DNA of 22,887 bases from a virus: IMG/VR virus record IMGVR_UViG_3300024999_000418, positions 1-22,887 of that record; one strand, written 5' to 3'. The notes beneath the pieces were generated by a model. The model saw nothing but the letters and a program-made list of their open reading frames with translations, searched no databases and was not told the DNA's origin. Shown here piece after piece: positions 5,877-15,716 of this stretch. Both the position numbers and the translations under genes were made by a program. Position 1 is the first letter of the stretch. Every line of letters begins with the position of its first letter.

Positions 5877-6562
5877 TATGACCTTTTAATATTGTGAAAG
5901 GGGTCAAATGATAGGTCTTCTAAAATTGAGGTGTCTTCCATCAGAAGAGGTTCTTCAAAAGATTCGTCAGGAATAAATAGGCCTTCTTGTTCTTCAGCAC
6001 AGAACAAATCTTCCAGAGATAAATCATCCTCGTTAGCAGGCGTCGTGACAACAGCATGATCTGAAGCAAGAGGAATGGTCGTAAAGGAGAGGTTTTGTCG
6101 TAAGGACTTTTTAATCTCTGGAAGATTTTTACCACCTGTGCGATTAATAGCTTCTTCTATGGCTGCTATCTCAGCATCAAGTTCTTCATCAGTTTTGGTT
6201 TGCAGAGTCATGTCGATGTTCAATCGATCGGGAGCCTTATAACCATTGCGATCGAGAACATCTTTGGCTGCATTAAACTGGACGGAGGCTGGAACAGATT
6301 TGCGTGAACCAGAATTGAGAAGGTGCTCGAAGGTTGCGAGTGCTTCTTTGTTAAGGCTGACTAACTTTTTACGAACATCTAAAGTTGCTTCGTGTGCTCT
6401 GTCTTGAAGGCCATTTAAGTAGGCTTGCCCAAGAGGTGAGCGAAGAATGGTCGATACGGATGATTGTGCCATGCCAAGACGCTCAGCGATTTCCTGATTC
6501 TTATATCCATTAAAGGCCATCTGGATAATGTTGCGGTGCTGAGATTTTAACTCTTTCAACAT
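5876..6562 (-). CDS. terS: Terminase small subunit
   Basis: 228 aa. Residues about 8-40 form a helix-turn-helix (AFNGYKNQEIAERLGMAQSS) that would recognise the packaging site. A central helical region (about 50-125) carries SVQFNAAKDVLDRNGYK, a signature often seen in small terminases. The C-terminal third is acidic and low-complexity (EEDLSLEDLFCAEEQEG-like), typical of the tail that contacts TerL. It is the first gene of the minus-strand late operon, with its stop overlapping the TerL start. The Shine-Dalgarno before ATG 6562 is weak, so the precise start is less certain, but an N-terminal start fits the HTH position. Confidence 0.87.
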   Translation of the reverse strand: MLKELKSQHRNIIQMAFNGYKNQEIAERLGMAQSSVSTILRSPLGQAYLNGLQDRAHEATLDVRKKLVSLNKEALATFEHLLNSGSRKSVPASVQFNAAKDVLDRNGYKAPDRLNIDMTLQTKTDEELDAEIAAIEEAINRTGGKNLPEIKKSLRQNLSFTTIPLASDHAVVTTPANEDDLSLEDLFCAEEQEGLFIPDESFEEPLLMEDTSILEDLSFDPFHNIKRS

Positions 6563-6600
6563 GGTTGGCAGCTTTACAGGTGAAATAGGTTAAATGGCTG

Positions 6601-6629
6601 TTGTGAACCTTTTGGAATTGTCCTATAAT
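6601..6629 (+). promoter_or_regulatory. Sigma-70-type promoter, TTGTGA-N17-TATAAT
   Basis: TTGTGA at 6601-6606 and a perfect TATAAT at 6624-6629 are separated by 17 bp. It points right, into the 730-bp leader before the first early gene. Confidence 0.55.
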
Positions 6630-6726
6630 AATGTGACATATTATGGTGGAAAGTGCAACATTAAAATGCATAAGGACTTAATTTTCCTGCTTTTTCCATA
6701 ATGCCGGCAATCATATTGAGCCTCCT

Positions 6727-6755
6727 ATAATATATAATGCCTGTCTGTTAGTTAA
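6727..6755 (-). promoter_or_regulatory. Possible minus-strand promoter for the packaging operon
   Basis: On the minus strand TTAACT (6755-6750) and TATTAT (6732-6727) are 17 bp apart, about 165 bp upstream of the TerS start. The surroundings are very AT-rich, so a chance match is possible. Confidence 0.35.
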
Positions 6756-6821
6756 TGCTCATAGTTCTGCTAATAGTGACAAGTTGAATGCTTGTATAAT
6801 TAAAATTGTTCCCTGACTGGC

Positions 6822-6837
6822 TGTTCATAAATGAACA
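6822..6837. promoter_or_regulatory. Dyad TGTTCAT-AA-ATGAACA (operator candidate, copy 1)
   Basis: A perfect 7-2-7 palindrome containing GTTCA-N4-TGAAC. The same 5-4-5 core recurs at 12295-12308 and 22825-22838, each time in a non-coding control position, so it is a candidate binding site for one shared regulator. Confidence 0.55.
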
Positions 6838-6971
6838 TAGCTATTGAGGTGGGCAAGGTTGGTGAATGTCCGGATTGACGGCAATGTGAAGTTGATTATT
6901 TCTGCAACTCTATATAGAAAGCCTAATCCACTACAGAGGGATCGAGGCATCCACACATGGGCAGGTCACAC

Positions 6972-8439: not shown

Positions 8440-8473
8440 ATGATGGTTGTATGGACGTTCGATGGTGAACAGG

Positions 8474-9256
8474 GTTTACAGTGTTTGCATGGTTTACATA
8501 GTTTGCCCAGAGCCAGGGATAAATAGTACCACATAGTAGGATATCCATAAAAAGCCCTACAATGCCCGGAAAAGCATCCTTCTCGATATGGCTACCCACA
8601 TAGCCCCACCGCTATAAAAGCCCTCTATAGCCCTTCTAGGACCATTCCTGGCAATATCTATCACAAGATAGCCAACAATAAGAAATTGCCTGTGTACAAG
8701 GTAAACAGGTGGGCATAATGCAAACAAGAAGTAAACACAGGAAAACACTATTAAACACAAGTAAACAAGTAGGCAGGTAAACAAGATAAATCTAGTAATA
8801 ACAGGTAGTTAGCTTGTTTGCAGGTTTGCAAAGAGTAGACAAGGGGCAAACTTGTAAACCGTAATAATATCAGGTAGTTACGCCTGTTTACCCAGGCTTA
8901 CAAGTAAACCCTACCCCCGTCACAGGAGAGGGAGAGGGGTACCTATTTTAGTATTTAATTTTTTTATTAAATAGATGTACTTAAAGGGGTTTGCAGAGAG
9001 GGGGGGTAGGTTTACTTGCATACCCTAGTAAACGCGATAATCTTCAACAATATCACCTGTTTATCCTGTCTACCCCTTGTTTACCTTTCGCAAACAATGC
9101 CCACATGCAAACCATAATTCCCCAACAATATCAGCCACTTACCTGGCTTCGCCAGTCATTTGTTTACCTTGTAAACACAAAGAAAACCCTTGCAAACCCT
9201 TAGCAAACCTTGTATACTACCTGCTAATACCCGGTAAACCATGCAAACCGGTAAAC
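8474..9256. repeat. Iteron-like array of GTTTRC/GYAAAC; candidate replication origin or centromere-like site
   Basis: 28 exact copies of GTTTAC, GTTTGC, GTAAAC or GCAAAC occur in about 780 bp, where equal base use predicts fewer than one. The first four (8474, 8483, 8492, 8501) alternate TAC/TGC at exactly 9-bp steps. A second set (8731, 8741, 8751, 8761) is in 10-bp phase, with variants GAAAAC and TTAAAC in the middle. Later copies are on both strands, often 8-11 bp apart (8816/8824, 8846/8854, 9079/9090, 9192/9203, 9243/9251). An imperfect 66-69 bp duplication is visible (AGGTAGTTA near 8803 and 8872). The array contains an AT-rich palindrome and G-rich tracts, and no gene. It resembles iteron origins or RHH-bound partition sites; three RHH genes lie downstream. 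Confidence 0.75.
8948..8975. other. AT-rich palindrome (possible DNA-unwinding element)
   Basis: TATTTAAT (8952-8959) and ATTAAATA (8966-8973) form a perfect inverted repeat around a T6 spacer. It is flanked by G/A-rich runs on both sides (8921-8938, and 8986-9010 with seven consecutive G). An AT-rich block inside an iteron-like array is the usual layout of an origin melting site. Confidence 0.5.
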
Positions 9257-9317
9257 CCTACACCGCAGCACTTGACAACCTCGGCTACGCCGAACAACCT
9301 CAACAGGAGCAATCACC

Positions 9318-9521
9318 ATGACAAACAAAAAACTTACTACAACAAAAGAAATTGTCGGCATTGAAATCTCTCACAATTCTAACGGAGTAAACATTTTTCT
9401 AACCTTTATTCCGCACGAATACCAGCACATTCACATAGACAGAGACAATAGTGTCGAACTTTGGTTAAATGAACAAGATCTATGGGAAATGGTTAAAAAT
9501 AAGACAACGTCAGTTCTTTAA
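9318..9521 (+). CDS. Small protein, unknown
   Basis: 67 aa from MTNKKLTTTKEIVGIE, with AGGAG 9 nt upstream. It is predicted mostly beta (IVGIEISHNSNGVNIFLTFI), with an acidic Trp-containing C-terminal helix (VELWLNEQDLWEMVKN). This is the first gene after the repeat array, with no strong promoter visible between them, so it may be transcribed from within the array. No family is recognised. Confidence 0.7.
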   Translation: MTNKKLTTTKEIVGIEISHNSNGVNIFLTFIPHEYQHIHIDRDNSVELWLNEQDLWEMVKNKTTSVL

Positions 9522-9598
9522 TCATCCAATAGCTCACAAAGACCTTGCTATGTCTATAAACTAGCAATCTTCTAATAAACTTAAAAGGAGCATCCATC

Positions 9599-10126
9599 AT
9601 GTCAAACCCTACCGTAAGTTTTCGTATCTCCGATTATCACCTTGCCAGAGGATTAAGAGCTATCCGAACTATTGAGCCGAACTGGAAATTAACCACACCA
9701 GCCGAACTGATCAGAACAATCTTTAATGATTACATAGCAAAATCAGAATTTAGCAACAATAGTCCATTAAGCGTAACTCCAGAACTTCTTGAAGAGATTG
9801 CCCTGGCAAGAATGGGAATGATCAAACAGCCAGGACAAAATAACAATCTTGCACCACTCCCACAACTTGGACAAGCAAACAAGCCAGCCTGGCAAATAAA
9901 AAAAGAACTTGAAGAAGAAAAGATATTCATGGCCATCAAGCAAGAACATGCACAAAAGAAAGAACTGTCAGAAAAAGAACTAGCCGAACAAATCAGTTTA
10001 GCTTTTCAAACAGGTCAAAGACTCCCCAAACCGTCAGAATTTCATGATCCAAACAACACCGAGTCAGAAATATCCACCGTAACTGACTTCAGCCCTCCGA
10101 AAGATTGGATTGATAGCGAGGAATAG
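9599..10126 (+). CDS. Ribbon-helix-helix DNA-binding protein (RHH paralogue 1)
   Basis: 175 aa with AAAAGGAG upstream. Residues about 4-50 match an RHH (MetJ/Arc/CopG-type) domain: a beta strand TVSFRIS, then helices HLARGLRAIRTIEP and TPAELIRTIFNDYIAK. Two shorter proteins (12991 and 13263) share this pattern. The rest is a polar tail rich in Glu, Gln and Lys with short helices (ELEEEKIFMAIKQEHAQKK), perhaps an interaction arm. RHH dimers bind short repeated operators and form plasmid partition complexes. This gene lies 340 bp after an array of hexamer repeats, so autoregulation or origin binding is plausible but unproven. Confidence 0.75.
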   Translation: MSNPTVSFRISDYHLARGLRAIRTIEPNWKLTTPAELIRTIFNDYIAKSEFSNNSPLSVTPELLEEIALARMGMIKQPGQNNNLAPLPQLGQANKPAWQIKKELEEEKIFMAIKQEHAQKKELSEKELAEQISLAFQTGQRLPKPSEFHDPNNTESEISTVTDFSPPKDWIDSEE

Positions 10127-10138
10127 ACACAACTAATG

Positions 10139-10187
10139 AACGGGCATAACGTGACGGAATTACACAGTTTTTTCCGTTATGCCCGTT
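10139..10187. other. Long inverted repeat after the RHH gene
   Basis: AACGGGCATAACG (10139-10151) pairs perfectly with CGTTATGCCCGTT (10175-10187). An alternative inner pairing, ACGGAA with TTCCGT, competes with the inner end. It starts 12 bp past the RHH stop. No T-tract follows the 3' arm on the plus strand, though the loop carries six T. It could be a rho-assisted stop, an mRNA 3' end or a protein site. Confidence 0.55.
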
Positions 10188-10189
10188 GC

Positions 10190-10380
10190 AACGTCCACAA
10201 CACGCTACACGCTACGTTTCTCGCCGGCCATGCAACCGTACCAACCCGGACGCCACGGCCCGCCACGGCGATCCTACGCCCTTCCTGGCCCTATCCAGCC
10301 CGACCACCATACTATATACACGCCACCGACCAACTACCACAACGTAGCACACGCAACAAACGTTTACGGTACACGTGTTT
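10190..10380 (+). terminator. C-rich, G-poor stretch (possible rut / Rho-dependent termination zone)
   Basis: The plus strand turns C-rich and G-poor for about 150-190 bp; for example 10291-10350 has about 26 C and 6 G by hand count. This is unlike its neighbours. It contains tandem ACGCTAC and duplicated CGCCACGG. It lies between a gene end and a new promoter, where a Rho loading site would make sense. Open frames across it have proline/threonine-rich nonsense-like translations, no ribosome site and no family resemblance. Confidence 0.4.
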
Positions 10381-10385
10381 TCCTG

Positions 10386-10414
10386 TTGACAAACCCTATT
10401 GTATACGGTACAAT
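10386..10414 (+). promoter_or_regulatory. Near-consensus promoter, TTGACA-N17-TACAAT
   Basis: A perfect -35 (10386-10391), 17-bp spacer and 5/6 -10 (10409-10414). ACGGTACA occurs just upstream (about 10365) and again overlapping the -10 (about 10405), and the palindrome ACACGTGT follows the first copy, so an operator pair is likely. It drives the gene at 10497 and probably the following cluster. Confidence 0.75.
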
Positions 10415-10496
10415 AACACAAGATACAGCCATACCCTTTCACCAGGCAAATACGCTGCAAACTACAAAGCACTCAACAGTCAAAGGAACAAAAACT

Positions 10497-10664
10497 ATGA
10501 AAGCAACAAACAAGGTAGAAATTGTAGTAGACGATAACGGCACCTTAAAAACTATTACCTTTCATGGAAGTCTTGAAGCCCTTATAGCCTGTTTCTACAA
10601 AGATGGCTTCATCACAAAAACAGAGTTCGAACAGTTCAAGGAAAGGTCTGAAAAGGATAAATAA
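10497..10664 (+). CDS. Small protein, first gene after the 10386 promoter
   Basis: 55 aa (MKATNKVEIVVDDNGTLKTI...). AAAGGA lies 9 nt upstream. Longer in-frame starts back to 10179 cross the promoter and the C-rich zone and were rejected. It begins with a beta hairpin (KVEIVVDDNGTLKTITF) followed by a helix (SLEALIACFYKDGFI) and a charged tail, a compact alpha/beta fold. No family is recognised. Direct placement behind a strong, possibly operator-controlled promoter suggests an early regulatory or host-directed role, which is inference only. Confidence 0.65.
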   Translation: MKATNKVEIVVDDNGTLKTITFHGSLEALIACFYKDGFITKTEFEQFKERSEKDK

Positions 10665-10705
10665 TAACTATGCCTGAATTACACTAGCTTAGTTTAATAT
10701 GTGTA

Positions 10706-10789
10706 ATGCAAGCATACCAGGACAAACTTGACTATCTAAAACGACTGCCTAATCATAACGTCTGGGTAATAGCCAAAGAAGATTATTAA
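10706..10789 (+). CDS. Possible 27-aa micro-protein
   Basis: The frame MQAYQDKLDYLKRLPNHNVW... fills the 150-bp gap before the next gene and has protein-like composition (amphipathic helix). No convincing ribosome site precedes its ATG, so it may be a remnant or untranslated. Confidence 0.25.
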   Translation: MQAYQDKLDYLKRLPNHNVWVIAKEDY

Positions 10790-10815
10790 TCACCTTCAAG
10801 ATAGGAGAGCATCAA

Positions 10816-10983
10816 ATGAAACCATTTCCATGTAATTTCTGCCATCAGCCAACCTTGCGTATCTGTCGAGACACCAGACTTAAAAATGATTTAGTTAATT
10901 GTTGCAAAGACTGCCAGGCAGAGCAAAACGAAAAGAAAGAACACATAACAATTAGTAGTGTCTGCAAAGAAGATAAGGACTAA
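10816..10983 (+). CDS. Zinc-ribbon-like mini-protein
   Basis: 55 aa, MKPFPCNFCHQPTLRICR then NCCKDCQAEQNEKKE. Cys6-x2-Cys9 and Cys29-Cys30-x2-Cys33 are spaced as two zinc knuckles of a treble-clef or ribbon fold. The C-terminus is polar and charged. AGGAGA precedes the ATG. It stops 3 bp before the next gene. Such mini-proteins often bind nucleic acid or protein partners; no specific target can be inferred. Confidence 0.65.
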   Translation: MKPFPCNFCHQPTLRICRDTRLKNDLVNCCKDCQAEQNEKKEHITISSVCKEDKD

Positions 10984-10986
10984 CTT

Positions 10987-11274
10987 ATGAACACAACCTT
11001 CTATTATGGCCTTATCCCAAGTGAGCTATTTCACCTGCAAGAGCAATGCACAATTTGGTTGCCTGAAACCCAGCCACTTGAACAAGCAATTTGGAATCCT
11101 AGCCAGATCATTGCAACCTGCGATCTGAGCTACCTATTCCAAATCTCTGAAATGATCCAAATCGGAACCATCACACCTAGTGAAATCATTTGGATTGAAG
11201 TAAAGAACCAAACAGCAACAGGTTACATATTTGGAAACGACGGCAAGATTGCAAACTTTTTCAGAATTAGCTAA
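10987..11274 (+). CDS. Unknown early protein
   Basis: 95 aa from MNTTFYYGLIPSELFHL, with TAAGGA upstream overlapping the preceding gene's end. It contains two Trp-containing strand segments (CTIWLPE, EIIWIEVKN) and a central helix (DLSYLFQISEMIQIG). It appears soluble. No recognised family. It is in a tight plus-strand cluster with 3-bp spacing to its neighbour. Confidence 0.7.
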   Translation: MNTTFYYGLIPSELFHLQEQCTIWLPETQPLEQAIWNPSQIIATCDLSYLFQISEMIQIGTITPSEIIWIEVKNQTATGYIFGNDGKIANFFRIS

Positions 11275-11332
11275 CCAAACCAAGCAACGAAGTTGCCCGC
11301 TTGTAAACATCATCCATAAGGAGTTAACGTTC

Positions 11333-11545
11333 ATGCCATACACCACTCACAACTATCGAACCAAGAAAGAAATTAAACTTGCCCTAGCAGCCGGCCAGAA
11401 AATAACTTGCTTTCAGCCAGGACCATTTGGACCTACCGTACCTGCCAATGGTACCATCTATTTAGAAGGCCCTCACTATCCGGAGCCCCACAAATGGTAC
11501 GGCCAGGGCCAGATGAAGGACGGCCAGCTGGTAAGTATTAAATAA
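11333..11545 (+). CDS. Conserved-looking small phage protein (EGPHYPEPHKWY motif)
   Basis: 70 aa. The start was chosen at 11333 because AAGGAG lies 8 nt upstream. The longer frame from 11231 overlaps the previous gene and has no ribosome site. The second half, TIYLEGPHYPEPHKWYGQGQ followed by MKDGQLVSIK, resembles a short conserved motif I associate with uncharacterised phage proteins. The fold is probably a small beta barrel. Function is unknown. Confidence 0.75.
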   Translation: MPYTTHNYRTKKEIKLALAAGQKITCFQPGPFGPTVPANGTIYLEGPHYPEPHKWYGQGQMKDGQLVSIK

Positions 11546-11574
11546 CTTTCAAACCAATCAAAAAGGAGAACATC

Positions 11575-11730
11575 ATGAATAAGCAAAGCTACGAAATTCA
11601 ATCCGATTATTTATGCAAATGTGGAAAACCAATTAAAATGAACCTCTTTAGTAAGAAAAATAGCAAATCTCTTCTCTGCTACAAGTGTCACAGAATTTCA
11701 ATCGGAAAGCCACCTTATCATGTACCGTGA
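11575..11730 (+). CDS. Zinc-ribbon-like mini-protein
   Basis: 51 aa, MNKQSYEIQSDYLCKCGKPI then SLLCYKCHRISIGKPPYHVP. CxC-G and CxxC-H at opposite ends of a 20-residue loop form a likely zinc ribbon. AAAAAGGAG lies upstream. It is one of several Cys-pair mini-proteins in this cluster. No specific function is assigned. Confidence 0.65.
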   Translation: MNKQSYEIQSDYLCKCGKPIKMNLFSKKNSKSLLCYKCHRISIGKPPYHVP

Positions 11731-11784
11731 AGAAAAAGGCTTGATGCAGGACTGCCAGTACATAACTAGATTGATTGCCTAATC

Positions 11785-11825
11785 ACCAGGTCAAAGCCAT
11801 TAAATTATAAAGGTTTTGACCTGGT
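11785..11825. other. 14-bp stem-loop between small genes
   Basis: ACCAGGTCAAAGCC (11785-11798) pairs with GGTTTTGACCTGGT (11812-11825) with a single G-U pair and a 13-nt AT-rich loop. No T-tract follows. It lies between the 11575 and 11868 genes in a 137-bp gap, so it is a candidate mRNA-processing or stability element, or a weak terminator. Confidence 0.6.
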
Positions 11826-11867
11826 TATGAGTTAGTCAATTTAACAACCTCAACAATGGAGATTATA

Positions 11868-12026
11868 ATGAAAAAGATTAAAGCAAAGCCAATTACAAAA
11901 TATTATCAAAATGAAAAATACATTTTTATTAATGGCTTAGCAAATGTTCCAAATATGCGTGATAAAAATGGTAAAAATTATACAATAACCCTTACAGAAT
12001 TTAATGCCTTAAGCAAAATAAAATGA
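11868..12026 (+). CDS. Small basic protein, unknown
   Basis: 52 aa, MKKIKAKPITKYYQNEKYIF then INGLANVPNMRDKNGKNYTI. Lys-rich, with alternating beta-like segments ending in a short helix (TEFNALSKIK). GGAG lies 7 nt upstream. It is more AT-rich than its neighbours. No recognised family. Confidence 0.65.
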   Translation: MKKIKAKPITKYYQNEKYIFINGLANVPNMRDKNGKNYTITLTEFNALSKIK

Positions 12027-12058
12027 AATTATAAACAATTTTAATCAAGGAGACAAAC

Positions 12059-12259
12059 ATGAAAACTAACCCAAGCAACAATAAGAATCATTTCACACCT
12101 CTTGAGTCCATGCATACTGAGTCAATTTGCCTTGGAATTCTTTGGACACTTGGTGCAATAGCCATAGTTAGCCTGCTTATATTCTTTGGAATTAACGAAG
12201 TAAAGGAAGTATTTCAACCAATTGTTGAGGCTCTACAAGTGAATACACACAGCAAGTAA
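12059..12259 (+). CDS. Small single-pass membrane protein
   Basis: 66 aa with AAGGAG upstream. A polar N-terminus of about 20 residues precedes one clear membrane segment (ICLGILWTLGAIAIVSLLIF, about 23-42) and a charged C-terminal helix (NEVKEVFQPIVEALQ). It probably sits in the inner membrane. Phage mini-membrane proteins can alter host transport or exclude other phages, but nothing specific is visible. Confidence 0.7.
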   Translation: MKTNPSNNKNHFTPLESMHTESICLGILWTLGAIAIVSLLIFFGINEVKEVFQPIVEALQVNTHSK

Positions 12260-12294
12260 AAAGTAATCTATATTGCCAAATGTTTAGTTTAGCT

Positions 12295-12308
12295 GTTCAC
12301 TTATGAAC
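12295..12308. promoter_or_regulatory. Dyad GTTCA-CTTA-TGAAC (operator candidate, copy 2)
   Basis: This perfect 5-N4-5 palindrome matches the cores at 6823 and 22825. It contains the ATG at 12303 of the longest frame of the next gene, arguing that translation actually starts downstream at 12351 and that this is a DNA or RNA control site. Confidence 0.5.
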
Positions 12309-12350
12309 GCCCATTACAAAAATTCGCACCTTGGAGGACATGCTACAATT

Positions 12351-12539
12351 ATGAAAGGCAAAACAATTCGTTTCTACAACAGATTTGGAACCCATATGGG
12401 CTGGAAATATCTTGCTAATGTAACATACTTTGAATTGATTAACTGGCTCAAAGCTGGCAATACAATAAGATTTCAAAAACAAACACTGACTAAGGAATCT
12501 CACAGCAATGAAATCTTTGCAATCTTACGGAGATCATAA
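12351..12539 (+). CDS. Small basic protein, unknown
   Basis: 62 aa if started at ATG 12351 (MKGKTIRFYNRFGTHMGW...). GGAGG lies 13 nt upstream, a little far. The alternative ATG at 12303 (78 aa) has no ribosome site and sits within the GTTCA dyad. The protein is basic and aromatic, with KGKTIRFYNRFG and NTIRFQKQTL as possible duplicated strands, suggesting a small beta-rich nucleic-acid-binding fold. It stops 2 bp before the next gene. No family is recognised. Confidence 0.6.
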   Translation: MKGKTIRFYNRFGTHMGWKYLANVTYFELINWLKAGNTIRFQKQTLTKESHSNEIFAILRRS

Positions 12540-12541
12540 CC

Positions 12542-12988
12542 ATGAAAAAACTCTGTCCAGTTTGCAACACCATCAATGAAGCAATAGGCTTCAATCTAAG
12601 CGAAAAAGAAATTCATAACATTAGTAAGATTGGATTGTCAGAACAGCTTTGCAAGACCTGCTACCAGAAAGAACTTGCAACCAGGTTAGCCTCCACCAAA
12701 GCTGAACTCATCCCACTGAATAAGGAAAAAGAAATTACACAAACTGCTTACCATAAAGCCTATGAAGCCTGGAAAGACATCGCCAGCATTTATCAAGCTA
12801 TCGACTATAATCTCAACATGAATAAACATGCAATTAAAATGAAAGAATCAACCAAGATAAAAATACCAAAAACTAGCGAACCAGTCAACATTGAGCTTCT
12901 TTGCCAGCAGATTCTTGCCACCCTAAGTAAAGAACAACAACAGGTGATAATTCAAACCTTTAAAGCAACTCAAACTATTGGGAACTAA
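12542..12988 (+). CDS. Protein with N-terminal zinc-binding module and helical body
   Basis: 148 aa. The N-terminus has two CxxC pairs (CPVCNT at about 5-8 and CKTCYQ at about 37-40) forming a probable zinc ribbon. A long charged helical region follows (about 41-90, ELATRLASTKAELIPLNKEK, coiled-coil-like), then a Lys-rich linker and a C-terminal helix bundle with a Gln-rich segment (LSKEQQQVIIQTF). Start spacing is 2 bp after the previous gene. The layout, zinc module plus helical arm, suggests a protein- or DNA-binding adaptor. It comes immediately before two RHH genes. Confidence 0.7.
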   Translation: MKKLCPVCNTINEAIGFNLSEKEIHNISKIGLSEQLCKTCYQKELATRLASTKAELIPLNKEKEITQTAYHKAYEAWKDIASIYQAIDYNLNMNKHAIKMKESTKIKIPKTSEPVNIELLCQQILATLSKEQQQVIIQTFKATQTIGN

Positions 12989-12990
12989 CA

Positions 12991-13266
12991 ATGTCAAGTC
13001 CAATCATAACATTTCGTCTCACTCCCCATCAACTTGCTCACGGCCTTCAGATTGTCCGCAGCCTGGGGCCAAACTTCCAGCTTACAAGTCTTAGCCAACT
13101 AGCCAAGATCATCTACACAGATTACCTGGCAAAAATGACCCTCAGCCAAACAGATGAAGTTTCTCCAGACATTATGCAAGAAATCCAAGTTTTTATCCTC
13201 AATCCCAGAAAGAAAGAAATCAACTTGGCATCTTTAGCCGATGAAGAAAAAGGAGTTCAACTATGA
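12991..13266 (+). CDS. Ribbon-helix-helix protein (RHH paralogue 2)
   Basis: 91 aa with the same N-terminal pattern as the 9599 gene: strand PIITFRLT, helix HQLAHGLQIVRSLGP, then SLSQLAKIIYTDYLAK. Identical or similar positions include the FR at the strand, the xLAxGLxxxR helix and the IxxDYxAK end. A short polar tail follows (VSPDIMQEIQVFILNPRKK). It starts 2 bp after the preceding stop. Its stop overlaps the next RHH start by 4 nt (ATGA), so the pair is co-translated and could form heterodimers. It is a candidate repressor or repeat-binding protein. Confidence 0.75.
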   Translation: MSSPIITFRLTPHQLAHGLQIVRSLGPNFQLTSLSQLAKIIYTDYLAKMTLSQTDEVSPDIMQEIQVFILNPRKKEINLASLADEEKGVQL

Positions 13267-13523
13267 GTAAATCCCGTGTAGTTTCAACTCGCATGACCAT
13301 TAATGACCTTGCCAAAGCACGTGACGGCCTACTGGCTAAGGGCATCGATCCATCTGACTTAACAACAACTAGTCAGCTTATCAAACTTACTTTCTACTAC
13401 GGAATCATTTATCTTTGCCAAGATCCAAAATCTCCACCAAGTCAGGAATCTACAGATTTTATACGGCAGAAATTCAGCAAGACAAGAGTAACCAGAGGAC
13501 TTAATTTGAATGATCTGGAATAA
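13263..13523 (+). CDS. Ribbon-helix-helix protein (RHH paralogue 3)
   Basis: 86 aa, strand RVVSTRMTI then helices NDLAKARDGLLAKGI and TTSQLIKLTFYYGIIYL. It is more diverged than the other two RHH proteins but has the same size and order of elements. AAAGGAG lies at the end of the previous gene and there is an ATGA overlap. The tail is basic (RQKFSKTRVTRGLNLNDLE). It is likely a DNA-binding dimer, and co-translation with RHH-2 suggests a shared operator. No direct target is visible. Confidence 0.7.
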   Translation: MSKSRVVSTRMTINDLAKARDGLLAKGIDPSDLTTTSQLIKLTFYYGIIYLCQDPKSPPSQESTDFIRQKFSKTRVTRGLNLNDLE

Positions 13524-14474: not shown

Positions 14475-15716
14475 ATGGTAATGAAATACAAAGGTAAAAC
14501 TCTTACCACTGAACAAGAAGCTCATGTTAACACCATTCTTGACGGAAACAATTATGCGATCCAGGCACCTCCTGGAAGTGGCAAAACCTTCTTGTTGCTT
14601 GCAATGGCGCGTAAAATGTCAGGATACGGCTTGTCAATCTCATTTAACAAACTTCTCGCTCAAGAGGCATCCACCAAGTTTTCCAGCAACATAATGTGCA
14701 AGACTGGCCATGCGTTAGCCTACGGAGCATTCGGCTACAAATACAAGAAGAAGCTCAGCAAATTGACAGGCAAACAACTGGCTGATAATTTCGATATCGG
14801 CGAGTGGCAACTATACAATAGTCCAGCCAACAAAGGATACTTGATTCTCAATACGATTCGCAAATACTGCTACTCTAGTGACGAAGTTATTCAGTACAAA
14901 CATTTGCCAAGATTAACAATTCTTCAGGATGCTGACCTGGATATTATGCGTGAAAACATTGCCCATATGGCAAATACCATAATCACTGGTTACTATCCAT
15001 ATCAGTTTGAGTACGTACCATTTCATGGCAACGACGATGTTACCTCATCTATTCATTATGAGCCCTTACCAGCTGTAGATGCAATCCTATGCCGGACAAA
15101 CAAAGGCATTATTGCAGAAACCATAGAAGCGCTTGGCAAAAATCTATCAGTCCACATCCTTGGTGGAACACAACAACTTACATATCTTATCAATTCTATA
15201 ATTCAGCTAAAATTGCAGGGATACTCAAATCATCCAGACTTATTCCTTTTTAAGAACTTTATCGATCTTGTTGAATATTCCAATTCTCCAATGGGAGGAG
15301 ATATTAAACCCATCCTAAAGTTAATCGAACTCTATGGCCGAGAAAGATTGCTAAGTATACTTGAATCAACTGTAGAAGATCCAAACGAAGCTGACGTGAC
15401 CATAACTACTGCACATAAAGCAAAGGGTCTGGAATGGTCTAGAGTGAGGCTGGCCAATGATTTTAAAGTTCCGTCCGATCAAGGGAATCCCACAACTGAA
15501 GAAACCAACATATTGTATGTAGCAGCCAGTCGAGCACTTCACCAACTCGATGTAAGCAAATGTGAAGCTTGCTGGCCTTACACTTTTGACAAAGCTCGAA
15601 AGGTTGCCTATGAACAATGGCAAGTAGATCAAATGACTGAACGAGACACTAATACTATGTTTAAAGAAGTTGTTAGTAAACATATCAATGAACTTGAAAA
15701 TGATGTTAAATTTTAA
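14475..15716 (+). CDS. UvrD/FBH1-like SF1 helicase lacking visible motif II
   Basis: 413 aa. Seen: a Q-motif-like TTEQEAHV (11-18), Walker A APPGSGKT (31-38), motif V-type TITTAHKAKGLEW (309-321) and motif VI-type NILYVAASRAL (345-355), all strongly SF1A (UvrD/Rep/FBH1). Not seen: a Walker B DExQD, or the following GDxxQxIYxFRGA and FR motifs. Where they should be, residues about 150-200 pass from the LPRLTILQDADL region directly to RENIAHMANTIITG and AILCRTNKG, as if about 100 residues were missing in frame. GAGGA upstream supports the start. It would be a replication/recombination helicase; without motif II its ATPase may be impaired or need a partner. Confidence 0.8.
   Translation: MVMKYKGKTLTTEQEAHVNTILDGNNYAIQAPPGSGKTFLLLAMARKMSGYGLSISFNKLLAQEASTKFSSNIMCKTGHALAYGAFGYKYKKKLSKLTGKQLADNFDIGEWQLYNSPANKGYLILNTIRKYCYSSDEVIQYKHLPRLTILQDADLDIMRENIAHMANTIITGYYPYQFEYVPFHGNDDVTSSIHYEPLPAVDAILCRTNKGIIAETIEALGKNLSVHILGGTQQLTYLINSIIQLKLQGYSNHPDLFLFKNFIDLVEYSNSPMGGDIKPILKLIELYGRERLLSILESTVEDPNEADVTITTAHKAKGLEWSRVRLANDFKVPSDQGNPTTEETNILYVAASRALHQLDVSKCEACWPYTFDKARKVAYEQWQVDQMTERDTNTMFKEVVSKHINELENDVKF

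Follow-up and report, generated by a model that had tools for sequence, protein, structure and literature searches.

Exchange of a short-site repeat array together with the DNA-binding core of a ribbon-helix-helix-like protein among related phages: a candidate replication origin

Background

We analysed the IMG/VR virus record IMGVR_UViG_3300024999_000418 over its whole stretch of 22,887 bases (the window), and in particular its gene A, which encodes a ribbon-helix-helix (RHH)-like protein, and the array of short GTTTRC repeats upstream of it, which together are candidates for a phage replication origin and its initiator. A preliminary description of this DNA, made from the sequence alone, had pointed out the array and three RHH-like genes, here called A, B and C.

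The RHH repressors MetJ, CopG, Arc and omega have a strand-helix-helix fold and use short tandem sites at 7-11 bp. Compared with them, A has far more sites, a long linker and tail, and no Pfam RHH_1 match. To our knowledge the RHH class is not known as replication initiator, and no replication initiator or phage origin of the RHH kind turned up in the literature searched, where subscription papers were mostly out of reach.

In phage lambda, the interaction between O and its partner P is known. The replicon-specific repeats of lambda are bound by O dimers beside an AT-rich tract that opens, according to the accessible text of PMC5043065 and PMC7466680, and extra copies of the origin can block the phage, according to that of PMC4488673. 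The array of A resembles this arrangement in having replicon-specific repeats beside an AT-rich tract. However, lambda has four 19-bp iterons (six in Shiga toxin (Stx) phages) inside gene O in those accounts, whereas here the array lies upstream of the gene, the sites are short and phased, and no homology was found.

A further parallel is the PLE satellite of Vibrio cholerae, in which the origin repeats and the DNA-binding domain of the RepA_N initiator covary and have been swapped as a module more than once while the C-terminus was kept, as the accessible text of PMC8263062 has it. The likeness lies in the swapping of an origin and its reading domain next to a conserved C-terminal part, as appears to be the case for A. 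The PLE, as described there, is a satellite whose initiator is of the RepA_N type and whose origin has three iterons of ~30 bp. Our case concerns tailed phages in which the core is RHH-like, the sites number in the tens at 6-8 bp each, and an AT-rich island lies in the centre.

The ParR protein of ParR/parC partition systems has an N-terminal RHH domain and a conserved unstructured C-terminal tail, and ~10-bp repeats lie upstream of the operon, in the accessible text of PMC5016525. The phages here differ from these systems in that no motor gene was found, in their conserved melting island, and in the exchange of core and array with the tail kept.

Results and discussion

Array and gene A

The locus contains the following features.

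8474-9256, both orientations: array of 28 GTTTRC/GYAAAC sites (motif kGTWWACm), proposed iterons and predicted A sites
8886-9033, no strand: inverted repeat with arms 8886-8921 and 8998-9033, each pairing a site with a C/G run and together framing the AT-rich island
8940-8974, no strand: AT-rich island TATTTTAGTATTTAATTTTTTTATTAAAT, proposed DNA unwinding element
9190-9218, plus strand: promoter-like TTGCAA-17-TATACT, 9/12 consensus matches, which overlaps sites in the rightmost part of the array
9599-10126, plus strand: gene A, 175 amino acids (aa), with an RHH-like core (residues 1-48), a variable linker and a conserved tail; proposed array-binding initiator
9599-9748, plus strand: A1-type DNA-binding core (MSNPTVSFRISDYHLARGL...), within the part exchanged along with the array
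10022-10123, plus strand: C-terminal tail of A (LPKPSEFHDPNNTESEISTVTDFSPPKDWIDSEE), common to A1, A2 and, in part, tailed B proteins

The array reported in the preliminary description is real: 8474-9256 contains 28 copies of GTTTRC, while 500 first-order Markov simulations gave 1.9 on average and never more than 7. Inside clusters, neighbouring sites are mostly 8-11 bp apart. In the window and in its near-complete relative G011, array sites outside the array are at or below chance and form no close pairs, so the array is a single locus and a regulon of such sites is ruled out. No Rfam family was matched.

The type of array follows the type of A core

Relatives of the window in IMG/VR are up to 68 kb long, and every record used is classed as linear and carries no completeness value. 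Their A proteins have one of two core types, A1 (MSNPTVSFRISDYHLARGL) and A2 (MSSPHMSFRLNHYQLAKAL), followed by a nearly identical common tail. Residue 5 of the strand is T in A1 and H in A2. We built a covariation table of 39 rows, i.e. the window and 38 of 42 loci, leaving out L076 (an L074-type copy cut at a contig end) and L107, L108 and L030, which matched B.

All nine tailed A1 genes have 9-44 GTWWAC-type sites upstream, each count above the maximum of 200 simulations. The eight complete A1 loci carry 24-44 such sites in 1.25 kb, and L078, at a contig end, has its 9 sites in just 334 bases. The 22 tailed A2 genes have only 0-3 GTWWAC-type sites each, and in 18 of them a different pattern, TGKNNMCA, exceeds its simulated maximum. 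The other eight rows comprise two tail-less A1 cores standing before an A2 gene (L018, listed as L094, has 5 TGKNNMCA and no GTWWAC-type sites; L099 has 9 and 6), a divergent A1-like gene with 13 GTWWAC-type sites (L100), an A1 core cut by a contig end with 30 (L101), and four B-type rows with no array directly upstream.

Motif discovery de novo returned matching A1 motifs in three lineages (the window family, L005, and L007 with L008) and matching A2 motifs in the window family and the distant L104. Symmetric expectation maximisation drifted to low-complexity patterns on short or low-complexity single arrays (L006, L018), as did the asymmetric form on several single arrays, and these runs were not used.

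The spacing points the same way. Gaps of 8-10 bp make up 93 of 225 among A1 sites, against ~23 expected, with a second peak at 20-22, in line with the 7-12 bp that had been predicted for RHH dimers. The A2 sites peak at 10 and 20-21, disregarding those that the loose A2 pattern counts twice at distance 1. Because the array type tracks the A core type across phages and the sites are spaced by 8-10 bp, A in all likelihood binds DNA, with the GTTTRC array as the target that it reads.

Array and core as one exchanged module

The window is ~85% identical to A2 phages in the flanking DNA, and the similarity breaks off at the array. Alignments with five A2 phages end at 8466-8473, where the first repeat starts at 8474, and resume at 9871-9998 inside gene A, with short islands between. 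When identity was binned by 60 bases for four relatives only, it fell against the A2 loci L056, L020 and L016 from 0.85-0.90 to 0.35-0.53 at 8461-8520 and was 0.87-0.90 again from 10021, inside gene A, while the A1 phage L004 kept high identity throughout the array and gene A.

Phylogenies add that the exchange took place more than once. On the tree of the terminase small subunit (TerS; 25 rows) the A types need 6 changes, and on that of a neighbouring 135-aa protein (29 rows) 8 changes, in each case with at least 3 forced, on the TerS tree by well-supported branches; the types are scattered like shuffled labels. The window and one A2 phage have TerS proteins with 98% identity, and a second A1/A2 pair occurs in a distant lineage (L008 with A1, L018 with A2). 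Since the stretch in which sister phages differ runs from the first repeat into gene A, our comparisons indicate that the array and the DNA-binding core are swapped as one module, repeatedly. They provide a natural set of paired reading domains and arrays, module-swapped between near-identical phages, where a slightly altered core goes with an altered site.

A small open reading frame at 9318-9521 was considered as a further member of the module and ruled out, as it is also absent from the A1 relative L004.

An AT-rich island inside the array

The island is conserved in A1, A2 and B-tail phages in a comparison by eye. It is framed by a site and a C run on the left and by a G run and a site on the right (the left side is cut by the contig end in L006), and A2 phages have the same inverted-repeat layout with GTACACCACCCCC / GGGGGGAGGTGTAC. 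In the window it is the least stable stretch of 32 bp, none of the 22,856 stretches being lower. It is likewise the least stable in L004 and L036, and second to sixth among the distinct minima in eight of nine other sequences; in all, 11 of 12 sequences have an easily melted element beside the sites that ranks within their six lowest distinct minima. A search of IMG/VR with the exact island 20-mer gave 30 matching stretches. Eight of these, all new ones, were checked closer: two (L123 and L129) lie in this group and six look like chance AT-rich matches.

Promoter-like sites around the array are no commoner than in shuffled sequence. The one at 9190-9218 is possibly an autoregulated promoter of A.

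The tail of A and its other carriers

The tail is single-copy in 19 of 20 records. The exception, the 17.8-kb contig G004 (L006 / L070), has a tailed A1 gene with GTTTRC sites and a tailed A2 gene with TGKNNMCA sites facing each other, and is either a case of two systems or a chimaeric contig. Three loci (L054, L055 and L109, in G018, G019 and G026) showed no A, and their tail is attached to a B-type core. Around the island, in the usual position, G018 and G019 have 7 GTWWAC sites each, against a null of 1.2 for G018 and 1.8 for G019, with 0 and 2 of 500 simulations reaching that count; in the pieces of G026 looked at no island was found. By these comparisons, the cores change while the tail seems to remain with the function.

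The fold of A

AlphaFold2 models of the monomers show two helices behind an extended N-terminus, at residues 12-25 and 34-48 in A and at 13-25 and 36-46 in C. The mean predicted local distance difference test score (pLDDT) is 68 for A and 74 for C; in blocks, A scores 79-88 over residues 1-40, with 86-88 for the helical part up to residue 40 and 68 beyond that residue. The helices lie where they would be expected in an RHH fold; the sequence and fold libraries, treated below, gave no match to an RHH family. Taking the sequence pattern together with the helices and the DNA evidence, we consider it very likely that A has an RHH fold.

A candidate origin and its rivals

We slightly favour the interpretation that window 8474-10126 is a phage replication origin with A as its initiator. 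The array, the phased sites, the conserved melting island, the covarying reader and the conserved tail together match an iteron-type origin, as described for lambda and plasmids (PMC5043065, PMC7466680), as well as the modular PLE replicons (PMC8263062), and the multiple replicon-specific sites of such origins would have their counterpart in the clustering and in the covariation of core and site. Under this interpretation RHH-like A dimers would bind the short pseudo-palindromic GTWWAC sites as phased neighbours and build a nucleoprotein complex around the AT-rich island, which would then melt. The C-terminal tail would recruit a replication partner, either a phage-coded helicase or primase or a host protein. 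A would probably also limit its own synthesis, because the array, at its right end, runs into the promoter-like sequence; both this autoregulation and the partner of the tail are inferred. Core and array are exchanged between phages, and the tail would be kept since it has to fit an unchanged replisome. In favour of an origin, too, the phages encode replication proteins of their own, SSB-like and Sak4-like ones in the window and a larger set in G011, listed below.

Several observations weigh against this interpretation. Many rows of our table are near copies from few sampling sites and are not independent. TGKNNMCA does not exceed the simulated maximum in four of the 22 A2 loci: it equals the maximum in L083 (10 sites) and L103 (7), is just under it in L082 (10) and far under it in L098 (3). 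A variant picked post hoc, TGTGNNYG, has 12 sites in L098 (null 2.1, maximum 9) and 22 in L018 (null 3.1, maximum 9). The island of G014 is not outstanding, with 2,149 of 59,463 stretches lower. GC skew in three relatives has no array-tied turning point separable from gene direction. A has no homology to known initiators in Pfam, PHROG or phage records, and no clear RHH family match to A, B or C was obtained in Pfam, PHROG, PDB sequences, Foldseek (PDB and viral) or VIA-align. A direct search of 12 records with Pfam RHH_1 (PF01402) gave no match at A, B or C, with positive controls in 14 of 14 genomes; its sole match (E 0.024) falls within an 1820-aa frame of G026 that is unrelated. In other searches no RHH families appeared at E up to 1 or 10. 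The layout of ParR/parC likewise pairs an array with an RHH protein that has a conserved tail.

A could instead be a repressor or switch acting on a large operator, controlling its own operon and the neighbouring early promoters, with the island as promoter or spacer. The promoter-like sequence overlapping the array (9190-9218), the GTATAC inside the promoter at 10386, and the place of the array between leftward structural and rightward early genes would suit such a role. But 24-44 sites in 1.25 kb at the eight complete A1 loci go far beyond the needs of an operator, array sites are in excess nowhere else in the window or G011, and the absence of integrase, none of which was found in 20 records, leaves no sign of lysogeny or of a maintained prophage. 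A repressor would also leave the conserved tail with its exchanged core and the conserved melting island unexplained, and we consider it unlikely.

The anatomy of A is also that of a ParR-like DNA organiser or segregation adaptor, with the core on a parC-like array and the tail on a filament or other partner: ParR has an N-terminal RHH domain, a tail, and ~10-bp upstream repeats in an array that is sometimes centrally split (PMC5016525, accessible text). A conserved tail on an array-linked protein, with the array upstream, is a feature of type II ParR/parC partition that A shares. The preliminary description had likewise thought of a segregation or copy-control circuit, an idea that our data do not support. 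ParA was found in 0 of 20 records, MreB-type motors in 0 of 13 and tubulin-type motors in 0 of 13. G011 has its own replication genes (PolA, a DUF3987 primase/helicase, a ligase and an exonuclease), and no recognised known initiator is among its proteins scanned. Its early-region open reading frames of at least 200 aa that were scanned (the exonuclease through its window homologue) match non-motor families, one of 227 aa having only a weak Thy1 match. A search for StbA/ParM (StbA_N) carries no weight, as its controls were silent. With no integrase or other sign of a maintained prophage, and a melting island in the array that points to an origin, a segregation adaptor seems improbable to us.

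It is highly improbable that the array serves as a site for packaging or recombination next to the terminase genes, with A as the protein that marks it. The array does lie ~2 kb from the TerS gene, but phages whose arrays differ share up to 98% TerS identity, TerS is therefore independent of the array, and A is not terminase-like.

If the region is indeed an origin, an RHH-type initiator would be added to phage replication, the swapping of origin and initiator seen in PLE satellites would extend to free-living tailed phages, and the drivers of origin diversity would become testable.

Tail-less A1 cores

An intact tail-less A1 core stands right before a tailed A2 gene in L018 (core of 100 aa) and L099 (core of 77 aa), the gene pairs lying at 10001-10868 and 5953-6881. 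The two cores differ mostly by silent changes (synonymous, pS, 0.65; nonsynonymous, pN, 0.106), and the constraint on them may predate the loss of the tail. By eye, the sites next to the island in L099 are GTAAAC (A1), and those of A2 type lie farther away from it. We speculate, as a long shot from sequence comparison, that these phages have RHH-type initiators whose core and iteron swaps diversify origin specificity under attack on origins, and that a tail-less A1 core might occupy the origin of A1 competitors without recruiting the replisome and so exclude them, as a nuclease-free counterpart of the origin-directed nuclease Odn.

Genes B and C

Two further genes and a promoter lie downstream of A.

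10386-10414, plus strand: strong sigma-70-like promoter TTGACA-17-TACAAT after gene A, with GTATAC (10401-10406) in its spacer
12991-13266, plus strand: gene B, 91 aa, tail-less paralogue of A, independent of array type; proposed transcription regulator
13263-13523, plus strand: gene C, 86 aa, probable remote paralogue

The coordinates and lengths first given for A, B and C are correct in the window, and the kinship then proposed among all three stands in part. A and B, 37% identical over 67 aa (E 3e-18 in a single comparison, 3.8e-13 in a search of the window), are by their sequences paralogues beyond doubt. C is not close: no alignment of B with C was obtained, that of A with C is weak (E 0.010 in a single comparison), and the A/B profile matches the C profile at E 5e-5 and probability 67.6. 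C is thus probably a remote paralogue of A/B at best. The common pattern xFRxxxxxLAxGL...DYxAK likewise fits A and B, whereas C reads STRMTINDLAKARDGL and lacks DYxAK. At 13263-13266 the stop codon of B and the start codon of C overlap as ATGA, which had been taken as a sign of co-translation; this overlap was seen in the window only, and ~10 to 700 bases separate B and C in relatives. Among named phage records A has no homologue, and B only matches at E 3 or worse. A scan of genome contigs for cellular homologues gave 24 pattern matches and 0 relatives.

B is 82-91% identical between window-family phages with different arrays, and B and C together 80-91%. Of the three RHH proteins put forward as array readers, A is backed by covariation and spacing, while B and C stay constant where the array differs, and a joint reading of the array by the trio is ruled out. 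B probably regulates transcription, and C may well do the same.

The promoter at 10386-10414 is conserved across the near group, in phages with A1, A2 and a B-tail gene alike. The window-family phages looked at have GTATAC in its spacer whichever type of A they carry, and so do both B-tail phages, L010 being an exception with GTCTAC. GTATAC is absent from L005-L008 and L018, and B there, as far as seen (L006, L008), has R at position 5. That B might bind GTATAC is a lead only.

The preliminary description had named GTTCA dyads as another possible target of the three proteins. The dyads exist: GTTCA-N4-TGAAC occurs at 6823, 12295 and 22825 in the window, always with a spacer of 4 (0.05 expected), and in 18 of 18 sequences examined, with 1-6 copies each against 0-0.2 expected and a spacer of nearly always 4 in relatives. 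They form a separate dispersed element, however, which occurs with either array type and apart from the array of A. The dyad at 12295 precedes the genes leading to B and C.

Other genes of the window and its relatives

The leftward structural genes of the window encode the large and small terminase subunits, a portal protein and a GroES-like protein, and its rightward early genes encode UvrD-like helicase, exonuclease, Sak4-like and SSB-like proteins. The closest named terminase, 53% identical, is that of EBPR podovirus 1. In G011 the terminase large subunit (L057 5637-8186) has 850 aa with internal matches to Hint-like and LAGLIDADG homing-endonuclease domains, and this insert is probably an intein; the window protein has 489 aa and lacks it. 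The UvrD-like helicase of the window (14475-15716) has 413 aa, against 517 in G011, and the absent stretch includes the DEYQDS motif, which means that the window protein is inactive or differently built, or else that there is an assembly error.

DNA polymerase A of G011 (L058 9987-12506) has an N-terminal domain of the uracil-DNA-glycosylase superfamily. A NADAR-domain protein (L055 9310-9759) sits between the B-tail and C genes. Similar, though not identical, genes starting MAEEFVQ... lie at both ends of the 68-kb contig G011 (L057/L060; 414-1367 and 67262-68215), which points either to a pair of related genes or to two strains overlapping at the ends of the assembly.

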